From assembly GCA_948468535.1 (NCBI GenBank), contig CAOKIL010000002.1, positions 1-64,000 of the forward strand: a stretch of 64,000 nucleotides of DNA, written 5' to 3'. The translations under genes were made by a program, and so were the position numbers. Positions within the stretch are counted from its first letter, which is position 1; each line of letters starts with the position of its first letter. This DNA comes from an uncultured Eubacteriales bacterium. GTDB taxonomy: Bacteria > Bacillota > Clostridia > Monoglobales > Monoglobaceae. Under the pieces are notes generated by a model. The model saw only the letters and a program-made list of their open reading frames with translations, searched no databases and was not told where the DNA came from. Shown here in pieces: positions 46,484 to 60,258 of the stretch.

Positions 46484-46792
46484 CTATTTTTTACACTTGG
46501 CTTTTAAAGACTGAAACTTTTCATAATAAATAATTTCAAAAAGTGCAGAAAGAACTCTGCCCTTTGTAATAAGCGTATAATCCGACTTCTCATTATCGCT
46601 ATGATTAACTTCCATTGCGTTATGTAATAACACTTTATTATCATCTAAAAATTGATATTTTAAAATATAATCTGTTTTATTAATTTGTATAGTTGAGATG
46701 TAGGATAAATCAGACGGATTGTATTGTGCGTCTTTAGTCAGTTCTTTTTTAATACTTTGGCAGTTTTTAAATTTAAATTTTCTTGTAATCAT
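46484..46792 (-). CDS. Hypothetical protein, 102 residues
   Basis: Not recognised. Small, basic and lysine-rich (MITRKFKFKNCQSIKKEL ... FQSLKAKCKK), no membrane segment or signal peptide. AAAGGAAG precedes the ATG. It is followed by a strong terminator and preceded by the small-RNA pair s1/N1. The other s/N pair (55.6-56.0 kb) also precedes a small hypothetical gene on the same strand. Confidence 0.6.
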   Translation of the reverse strand: MITRKFKFKNCQSIKKELTKDAQYNPSDLSYISTIQINKTDYILKYQFLDDNKVLLHNAMEVNHSDNEKSDYTLITKGRVLSALFEIIYYEKFQSLKAKCKK

Positions 46793-46834: not shown

Positions 46835-46947
46835 TTGAAAAACCTTTGCATAAGTGGTATAATAATTTTGCGTGGTTTTTTAAGAAGCTGCGATATTCCG
46901 GAAGCAGTATTAATCTTTTGACGAGATTACTGCTTCCTATTTTTTGT
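46835..46947 (+). ncRNA. Candidate small RNA s1 with promoter
   Basis: TTGAAA (46835-46840), 17 nt, TATAAT (46858-46863) predicts a start near 46870. The roughly 78-nt RNA ends in a long hairpin (GGAAGCAGTA 46899-46908 with TACTGCTTCC 46927-46936, inner AATCT/AGATT) and a TATTTTTTGTTTT tail. s2 at 55633-55752 has the same promoter-hairpin-tail plan, and the sequence after the hairpin (TATTTTTTGTTTT, GTTAA, CCCC) matches. Confidence 0.6.
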
Positions 46948-46993
46948 TTTGAGGTTAAACACTGACATCCCCCCTTTTAAAATAACCCCAATA

Positions 46994-47194
46994 TTAAAAA
47001 AGTGCGTTAACAAAGTAACGCACTAAAAAACACATTACTCTAATAGTTGTCACACTAATTATTTCAATCCTAATAAACTAAGAATATCAAAAAATAGAGT
47101 AAGCGTTTTTATCGTATTAAAATAAAACGTTTATAAGGATTAAAATTAAATAATGTGACAAAGCAAGTATATCACACCTTTTTAAGTTTGTAAA
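46994..47194 (-). ncRNA. Structured RNA element N1 with promoter and terminator
   Basis: Minus-strand promoter TTTACA (47194-47189), 17 nt, TATACT (47171-47166). The RNA (about 47159 to 46994) is closed by TTGTCACA (47047-47054) with TGTGACAA (47154-47161). An inner stem pairs AATCCTAATAAAC (47066-47078) with GTTTATAAGGATT (47129-47141). A terminator (GTGCGTTA/TAACGCAC, 47002-47023) has a T-run on the minus strand. Compared with N2 and N3 both stems differ in sequence but keep pairing. No reading frame of note. Confidence 0.7.
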
Positions 47195-47204
47195 CACCAA
47201 ATTT

Positions 47205-47474
47205 TATTTCAAGACCCATTTCTTTCCTACTTGCGGAAAGAAACGGTTCTTGGACTCCAAAGAAAGGCGCTTTGGCTCGCTGAGGTCGCTATCGCTCCAA
47301 GGGCGTGCCCCTAATCGGTTTTTGGCTAACGCCAAAAACAAGGACAGCTTCACAGCCTTAATATTTTTGCACTGCCGTGAATCTTTCAGCAAAGGCATTG
47401 ACGATATTGCCGCCGCGGCTTGGCATGGCGGAATATGGGTTCGGCAATGGTTTCAAAGTCAACGCCTTGATGAA
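47205..47474 (-). repeat. Dispersed repeat R, copy R1
   Basis: About 270 bp, more GC-rich than its surroundings, homologous in reverse orientation to R2 (56000-56250). Shared blocks in order (minus strand here): TTCATCAAGGC, ATTCCGCC, CCGCGGCGGCAAT, ATTCACGG, AGTGCAA, CTTTCTTTGGAG and a terminal hairpin (TTTCTTTCC/GGAAAGAAA). R1 also has the hairpin GTTTTTGGC/GCCAAAAAC (47318-47339). An open frame of 64 codons crosses it but is not supported as a gene. Confidence 0.75.
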
Positions 47475-47486
47475 TTACCCAAAAAC

Positions 47487-47684
47487 TAAAAAATGCGCCA
47501 GCAAAGCTGACGCACAAAAACGCAGCTTTGATTAAATGTTGCGACACATCTCATAAACTTTAAACAGAAAAAAAGAATATGACAAACCAAAGCCTACGTT
47601 TTTTACATTCGTAAACTATTTTTCTGTTTAAATATTAAAGAAATGTCGCAGATATAATATAACATACTTTATTTAGTTTGTAAA
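47487..47684 (-). ncRNA. Structured RNA element N2 with promoter and terminator
   Basis: Promoter TTTACA (47684-47679), 17 nt, TATATT (47661-47656). The RNA (about 47650 to 47487) is closed by TGCGACA (47540-47546) with TGTCGCA (47644-47650). The inner stem is a perfect 14-bp match, TTTAAACAGAAAAA (47559-47572) with TTTTTCTGTTTAAA (47619-47632). The terminator at 47494-47514 (TGCGCCAGC/GCTGACGCA) pairs fully, with a U-G, only as minus-strand RNA. The core around CCTACGTTTTTTAC is shared with N3. Confidence 0.75.
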
Positions 47685-55315: not shown

Positions 55316-55600
55316 TTATTTAATCAAATCTTTTGCAAGCATTAATCCGCAGCGGATTCCTGTTTCCATACATACTCTTTCGTATACATCTGAAAATTCA
55401 AAAATACTGTTCATTATATTTGTAACATCTTTATCATCTTTAAAATATTTTCGCAGTATGTTATTCATTTTCAATGTTGCATCTTCTATCTCTTTATTAT
55501 ATAATCCGTTAGGTTCATCTATTTCTTCTTTACCGTTCAACAAGAACTCTCCGATTTTCCGCAAATTCGCTCTCCTTAATATATCTGATAAATCATCCAT
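55316..55600 (-). CDS. Hypothetical protein, 94 residues
   Basis: Start ATG 55600 with AGGAGG 7 nt upstream; an upstream in-frame TTG lacks a ribosome site. Not clearly recognised. It is helical and charged, ending VCMETGIRCGLMLAKDLIK. That end resembles small hypothetical proteins that end in a 'GFRLG...LM'-type helix, but I do not assign a family. It follows the s2/N3 element pair, as the 102-residue gene at 46.5 kb follows s1/N1. Confidence 0.65.
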   Translation of the reverse strand: MDDLSDILRRANLRKIGEFLLNGKEEIDEPNGLYNKEIEDATLKMNNILRKYFKDDKDVTNIMNSIFEFSDVYERVCMETGIRCGLMLAKDLIK

Positions 55601-55632: not shown

Positions 55633-55752
55633 TTGACAAGAGGAACCTTCCATAGTATAATTAGATTTACGGACAGAGTTCGCTCTTGTCTGGTTTTTGT
55701 TATAGAACGTTGTTAACATTGGTCGTGTGGCAGCGTTCTATTTTTTGTTTTT
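55633..55752 (+). ncRNA. Candidate small RNA s2 with promoter
   Basis: Exact consensus TTGACA-17-TATAAT (55633-55638 and 55656-55661), start near 55668. A first hairpin around a TTCG loop (GACAGAG...CTCTTGTC) is followed by a terminator, ATAGAACG (55702-55709) with CGTTCTAT (55734-55741), and a TTTTTTGTTTTT tail. The terminator tail and the bases after it match s1. The RNA lies on the strand opposite the leader of the 94-residue gene. Confidence 0.65.
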
Positions 55753-55795
55753 GAAGTTAAGCATAAATATTCCCCTCCTTAAAAACCTCAATAAC

Positions 55796-55990
55796 TAAAA
55801 AATGCGCCAGCAAAGCTGACGCACAAAAACGCAGCCTTGATTTAATGTTGCAACACATCTCATAACTTTATTCCATGAAAAAGTATGACAAATCAAAGCC
55901 TACGTTTTTTACAAATCGTAAACTTTTACATGAAATAAATATTAAGATATGTTGCAAATATAATATAACACACTTTTATATTTTTGTAAA
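55796..55990 (-). ncRNA. Structured RNA element N3 with promoter and terminator
   Basis: Promoter TTTACA (55990-55985), 17 nt, TATATT (55967-55962). The RNA (about 55956 to 55796) is closed by TGCAACA (55849-55855) with TGTTGCA (55950-55956), where N2 has GCGACA/TGTCGC. The inner stem pairs TTTATTCCATG (55867-55877) with CATGAAATAAA (55929-55939); the single mismatch becomes a G-U pair only in minus-strand RNA. The core and the terminator (55803-55823) are nearly identical to N2. Confidence 0.75.
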
Positions 55991-55999
55991 GAAAATTTT

Positions 56000-56250
56000 T
56001 TCATCAAGGCTTTACCTTTAAATCAAACGCCGTCCCCTGATTCCGCCTTGCCTACCGCGGCGGCAATGTTGCAAAGCCTTTATGAAAAATTCACGGTAGT
56101 GCAATGATATTTAGGCATAAAAAGCGGTTTGCTTTTTCGAGTTGCTATAGCAACCGAAAAGTAGAGCGATGCACAAACTAAGCGTTTTTCTTTGGAGGTT
56201 CGGAACCATTTCTTTTTCCGAATCGAAAAAAGAAACGGTTCTGAAAATAA
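56000..56250 (+). repeat. Dispersed repeat R, copy R2
   Basis: The counterpart of R1 (47205-47474) in opposite orientation, beginning TTCATCAAGGC immediately beyond the N3 promoter. The terminal hairpin here is TTTCTTTTTC/GAAAAAAGAAA, different in sequence from R1 but still paired. Two short inner hairpins (AAAGC/GCTTT and GTTGC/GCAAC) replace the single hairpin of R1. Confidence 0.75.
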
Positions 56251-60097: not shown

Positions 60098-60239
60098 GAG
60101 ATAATATTTGTAAAAATATCTTAAATATTCCGCAGACAGCAGGTGGATTGTTCCGTAAATCCTGCCGAGGAAGATATAAATTTCAGAATATATATTATTG
60201 TGATATTATGTCCCTCGTATGTTTGCGAGGGATTTTTTT
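60098..60239 (+). promoter_or_regulatory. L10 leader with attenuator
   Basis: The region 60131-60175 (CCGCAGACAGCAGGTG ... AATCCTGCCGAGGA) matches the known ribosomal protein L10 leader, bound by L10(L12)4. It is followed by a terminator TCCCTCG/CGAGGGA (60211-60232) with a T-run (to 60239), as expected for attenuation. Confidence 0.85.
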
Positions 60240-60258
60240 ACGGAAGGAGGATATAAAA

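Follow-up and report, generated by a model that had tools for sequence, protein, structure and literature searches.

The described systems closest to the RNA reported here include the c-di-GMP-I (GEMM) riboswitch (RF01051), which likewise occurs in many copies per genome and in tandem, exerts terminator-based control and lies ahead of surface-protein and regulator genes. The present RNA differs from it in lacking an Rfam match and in its architecture of two stacked stems, a P3 hairpin and a long pseudoknot to the strand preceding the terminator; it is also present in genomes in which no GGDEF protein was detected, and relatives carry it alongside true c-di-GMP-I RNAs. Trp-type attenuators and terminator/antiterminator riboswitches share with it an alternation of adjacent pairings, in which formation of either 1:2 and 3:4 or 2:3 and 4:5 picks the antiterminator or the terminator. 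Here, however, pairing 2:3 is a pseudoknot reaching across two closed stems, and no conserved leader peptide was noticed within the RNA by a non-systematic look. In preQ1-type riboswitches a pseudoknot competes with expression-platform pairing in a similar way, but the present RNA is several times larger, is unrelated in sequence and stems, and has no queuosine genes among its putative targets. Finally, 6S RNA (RF00013) is a long hairpin of similar size with its own promoter, whereas the present RNA is multi-copy, lies before genes, has a covarying antiterminator and pseudoknot and is again without an Rfam match.

The window analysed here is a stretch of 64,000 nucleotides from a Monoglobus-like metagenome genome (1.80 Mb in 129 contigs, 79% complete) and contains three elements, N1, N2 and N3 (Table 1). 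On the comparisons set out below, these very probably belong to an uncatalogued family of 5' leader RNAs that act in cis on transcription termination, that is, attenuators, probably of a riboswitch-like kind. In agreement with a preliminary description of the window, promoter, outer stem (P1), inner stem (P2), core and terminator are all present in each element on the minus strand where that description had placed them; the outer stems are as it had quoted them, and in folds of the three elements the inner stems are unlike between copies with their pairing kept. The promoters read TTTACA-17-TATACT or TATATT and the core is A-rich. Folding z-scores are -4.3 for N1, -4.7 for N2 and -6.3 for N3, with none of 200 shuffles of each copy as stable, and terminator energies are -10.5 kcal/mol for N1 and -14.2 kcal/mol for both N2 and N3.

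Table 1. Features of the three leader elements and of the genes behind them (R2, covariance model described in the text; relay strands are numbered 1 to 5)
Feature	Position	Strand	Details
N1 promoter	47166..47194	-	-35 TTTACA 47189-47194, 17-bp spacer, -10 TATACT 47166-47171
N1 leader RNA, R2 match	47015..47160	-	30.6 bits, E 6.5e-5 over 20 kb, filters off
N1 outer stem P1, 5' strand TTGTCACA	47154..47161	-	Partner TGTGACAA 47047-47054; fold and covariation
N1 inner stem P2, 5' strand TTTTAATCCT	47136..47145	-	Partner AGGATTGAAA 47062-47071; fold and covariation
N1 relay strand 1, P3 hairpin 5' arm and loop	47113..47130	-	1:2 supported across homologs; N1's own weak, -4.8 kcal/mol
N1 relay strand 2, core ATAAAAACGCTTACTCTAT	47094..47112	-	Partner is strand 1 (P3) or strand 3 (pseudoknot)
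N1 relay strand 3 AGAGTAATGTGTTTTTT	47025..47041	-	With core 15 bp, -15.1 kcal/mol; with terminator 5' arm 10 bp, -10.1 kcal/mol
N1 intrinsic terminator, relay strands 4 and 5	46996..47023	-	GTGCGTTA-CTTTGT-TAACGCAC-TTTTTT; -10.5 kcal/mol
N2, tandem copy upstream of N1, promoter to terminator	47488..47684	-	R2 match 47506-47650; 117.1 bits, E 5.1e-23
N3, promoter to terminator	55797..55990	-	R2 match 55815-55956; 137.9 bits, E 2.3e-27
Presumed target, 102-aa orphan protein (first sizeable gene behind N2-N1)	46484..46792	-	No Pfam/PHROG match
Presumed target, 94-aa orphan protein (behind N3)	55316..55600	-	No Pfam match above cut-off

Family distribution and nested stems

A DNA search of the genome from which the window comes yielded about 13 copies of full length besides many partial ones. 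Covariance models R1, built from four copies, and R2, built from 113 matches, gave 30 and 39 matches in this genome, respectively, at E values up to 0.1. A few of these 39 echo a copy from the reverse strand, leaving about 37 true copies with N1 included, so that what had been described as a three-copy family is a much larger one. The covariance search of related Clostridia proposed at that stage located the family far beyond the window: 26 of 60 genomes of relatives contain matches, mostly 4-14 per genome inside the genus, and a class-wide scan at 1e-5 returned matches in 29 of 245 Clostridia genomes, belonging to 18 genera in scattered Clostridia families. Named records with matches are those of Monoglobus sp., Candidatus Avimonoglobus, uncultured Oscillospiraceae and other Clostridia genomes, and none of the viral contigs matches the family pattern. 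Tandem copies occur, with a maximum of three in a row ahead of one AbrB gene (locus L213).

At gathering threshold, no Rfam 15 family was found over N1-N3 or in 20 homologous loci, and permissive scans gave either nothing or models far under the cut-off, mostly of eukaryotic microRNA. The 6S RNA model in particular matched neither N1-N3 nor the 20 loci. No description of the motif was found in the openly licensed literature searched, and the claim of novelty is one of absence from Rfam 15 and from searchable open papers. To that extent, and given the covariation described below, the earlier designation of an unrecognised structured RNA stands. The RNA would represent an uncatalogued class of gene-control RNA carried by more than a tenth of the sampled Clostridia genomes, dozens of times in some.

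The nested structure was evaluated in an alignment (A5) of 68 matches, 65 of them distinct, which were collected after R2 had been built and include a few that overlap earlier matches in sequence. In A5, which was not used for R2 but was fitted to the structure and is thus biased in its favour, the nested stems P1-P2-P3 are 91.7% paired, 31 of the 34 nested pairs show changes on both sides, and double-changed cells number 485, compared with 151 after shuffling and no more than 92 after sliding. The proposal of selection on RNA structure, with covariation in a wider alignment, is upheld by these two-sided changes. The cruciform suggested as an alternative is unnecessary, since promoter, terminator and relay are all of one polarity, and it is the wide alignment, not N1 as had been supposed, that provides the best evidence of covariation: N1 is indeed the most divergent copy in the window, and as a divergent member with a low R2 score it is not the best single witness. 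Because a MAFFT alignment (A1) misaligned the variable stems, evidence for the stems was taken from the model-based alignments and from an alignment-free swap test, in which duplex energies of matched strands are compared with those of swapped strands. After thinning, this test gave Z -13.4 for P1 and Z -14.9 for P2. The control pairing the P2 5' strand with the P1 3' strand was not null, most likely because the inner part of P1 falls inside both windows. Long, variable stems are accompanied by only short conserved unpaired stretches, namely AATA linking P1 to P2, the P3 loop, CAT ahead of the P2 3' strand and CA following the P1 3' strand; these stretches could form a ligand-binding site or, equally, a protein-binding one.

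Promoter and stems are held in a fixed register. A promoter was recognised in 147 of 154 homologs, against 254 of 720 random windows, and its spacing is 17 bp in 141 of the 154. P1 follows the end of the -10 box at 5 nt in 118 of the 154 copies and at 6 nt in 18 others, which would set the transcription start at or beside the first base of P1. In the relatives, the next start codon lies mostly about 30-60 nt past the end of the model, just beyond the terminator, so that promoter, leader, intrinsic terminator and a gene in the same orientation follow one another in the order of an attenuator. Several copies in the window's own genome have behind them a repeat, or else a mini-ORF together with an antisense RNA gene, with no full gene directly following, and for this reason some copies may act differently.

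Pseudoknot and alternating pairings

Two features had been missed in the preliminary description, namely a long pseudoknot between the core and the strand that immediately precedes the terminator, and a relay of five strands in which 1:2 is the P3 hairpin, 2:3 the pseudoknot, 3:4 the antiterminator and 4:5 the terminator. The pseudoknot, in which the core AAAAACGnAnGCTTTGnTT pairs with AATCAAnGCTGCGTTTTT, is contained in no covariance model; in A5 it is 88.8% paired, compared with 66% or less when slid, and has 30 double-changed cells versus 13 in shuffles. It weakens at its outer end, where columns 179-186 of A5 are only about 60-75% paired. After thinning, co-change across up to 144 copies gave Z -11.0 for 1:2, Z -10.0 for 2:3 and Z -11.6 for 3:4, and for each of the three none of 5000 permutations was as good, also when 35-55 dissimilar copies were used. 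The non-adjacent pairings 2:4, 1:3 and 1:4 showed no co-change in the same test (Z about -0.5). Terminator and antiterminator pairings that exclude each other are thus both kept by co-change, as in an attenuator. Summed strand energies, as rough means without a pseudoknot penalty, are about -27 kcal/mol for 1:2 plus 3:4 and about -32 kcal/mol for 2:3 plus 4:5, and a switch would be expected to have two states so close in energy.

In N1 the relay is kept with changed sequence: its core TTACTCT, strand 3 AGAGTAATG and terminator CGTTACTTT correspond to GGCTTTG, CAAAGCTG and CAGCTTTG in N2. Pairings 2:3 and 3:4 are retained in N1 with this new sequence, and 1:2 is weak.

With promoter, terminator, P1, P2, P3, pseudoknot, antiterminator pairing and position before genes all shown by sequence or covariation, we infer an order and kinetics of folding, with a default state and a response to a signal, that could run as follows. 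Transcription would start on the first base of the outer stem or beside it, and P1 and P2 would hold out the core, whose 3' strand (strand 2) would pair first with strand 1 to give P3. On emerging, strand 3 could then invade the core by way of a toehold, a short single-stranded stretch that reads CTTTGATT in most copies, forming the long pseudoknot and displacing strand 1. With the pseudoknot formed, strand 4 would be left free for strand 5, the terminator would form, and only a terminated transcript of roughly 150-165 nt would be released. If the P3 state instead persisted, strand 3 would take strand 4 as the antiterminator and polymerase would read into the gene. Such a co-transcriptional strand exchange would be decided by whether invasion succeeds before strand 4 emerges, and an input stabilising one of the two states would set the output.

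Downstream genes, input and alternative readings

Proteins encoded downstream were surveyed with Pfam in two sets of 63 and 38. BspA-type LRR proteins account for 12 and 7 of these, respectively, MazE/AbrB for 8 and 1, and Cu_amine_oxidN1 for 5 and 4, while ABC transporter ATPases account for 9 in the second set; fewer matches were to bacterial PH domain (4), RCC1 (3), SLH (3), CHAP (2) and the M23 and S8 peptidases (1 each). The putative targets are BspA-type surface proteins, S-layer/CHAP proteins, ABC exporters and AbrB-zinc-ribbon regulators, and they are similar across genera. Among 18 AbrB-zinc-ribbon loci fetched from the genus, 16 have the RNA directly upstream, and one of the remaining two starts close to a contig end.

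In these regulators an AbrB/MazE-like DNA-binding domain is fused to a zinc ribbon (loci L023, L026, L042, L060, L096-L098, L120 and L124); the fusion is multi-copy in the genus, lies nearly always behind the RNA and is a candidate partner regulator. The 102-aa and 94-aa orphans of Table 1 represent two small-protein families with many paralogs behind copies of the RNA, neither family having a Pfam match or a confident PHROG match. Behind one copy (L055), 258 nt past the model end, is the gene of a ribosome hibernation factor (Ribosomal_S30AE), and another copy (L036/L025, contig 34 of genome G000) lies directly behind a GGDEF gene (2067-2534) and ahead of a secreted-protein gene.

The target list suggests a global signal and not one metabolite. 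The targets have no common metabolic pathway that would point to a ligand, and the input may also be a protein or an RNA; direct sensing of a small molecule has, in our estimate, about an even chance. Slightly below that we place the more specific proposal of a new Clostridia riboswitch class, in which the pseudoknot would be a strand-exchange switch driven by the toehold, sensing a widely used signal other than c-di-GMP and coordinating surface adhesins, cell-wall proteins, drug-type exporters and AbrB-zinc-ribbon regulators. c-di-GMP itself is disfavoured as ligand, since genome G011 has 14 copies and no detected GGDEF match. The GGDEF search found no match in G011 (94% completeness), G014 or G019, all of which carry copies, with the caveat that metagenome-assembled genomes may miss genes. 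In addition, RF01051 has 0 matches in the window's own genome, against some 37 copies of the present RNA, c-di-GMP Rfam models gave no hit in the 20 homologous loci, and in other relatives true c-di-GMP-I riboswitches coexist with the RNA. If real, the attenuator class would govern the presentation of surface proteins and exporters by gut bacteria, and since the regulon suggests a global signal, identification of the input might uncover a signalling pathway not yet known.

The same attenuator might instead be set by an RNA-binding protein or another RNA, an alternative that concerns the input only and that we regard as somewhat less likely than not. It would suit targets without a shared metabolite pathway and long variable stems interrupted only by short conserved unpaired stretches, and the recurrence of AbrB-zinc-ribbon genes as targets leaves room for regulator feedback; on the other hand, no gene for an RNA-binding protein lies consistently beside the element, and the unpaired stretches could equally be a ligand pocket.

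It is unlikely that the elements are free-standing multi-copy small RNAs, 6S-like or trans-acting, for which the terminator would be the true end and the downstream genes incidental. Each copy does have its own promoter and a strong terminator, and several own-genome copies, N2 among them, are followed by a repeat instead of a gene. Against this as the main reading are the lack of a 6S match in Rfam, the antiterminator 3:4 kept by co-change, which would be needless in an RNA that always terminates, and the recurrent gene families that start just past the terminator in many genera. The preliminary description's structured RNA is thus retained and the free-standing small RNA that it implied is not: because the RNA sits directly ahead of genes in relatives and shares its terminator strand with the antiterminator, a cis-acting attenuator is the preferred reading. 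Least probable by far is that the apparent RNA stems are the terminal inverted repeats of a MITE- or REP-type element, either non-autonomous and mobile or repetitive. The family is dispersed through one genome in many copies, which often have a second dispersed repeat at their side, but this reading is largely refuted by stems that differ strongly between copies with pairing kept, by two mutually exclusive extra pairings that co-change, by the constant register of promoter, terminator and gene start, by similar target genes across genera and by the want of a viral contig with the pattern.

Neighbouring elements

A recurrent cassette lies between the attenuator and the orphan gene, at 46835-46968 behind N1 and at 55633-55764 behind N3. 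It consists of a ribosome-binding site with a mini-ORF of 8-13 codons (MSVFNLKTKNRKQ, MLNFKNKK) and, on the plus strand, a convergent gene for a small RNA that has a promoter and a terminator of its own; cassettes of this kind are found behind roughly a dozen copies in the same genome, and antisense or type I toxin-antitoxin-like control is possible. A dispersed repeat with arms TTGCCGCCGCGG and TTCATCAAGGC occurs at about 47390-47480 and 56010-56100 and flanks many of the attenuator copies in this genome. The Rfam scan also located a ribosomal protein L10 leader (RF00557) at 60112-60247 on the plus strand.
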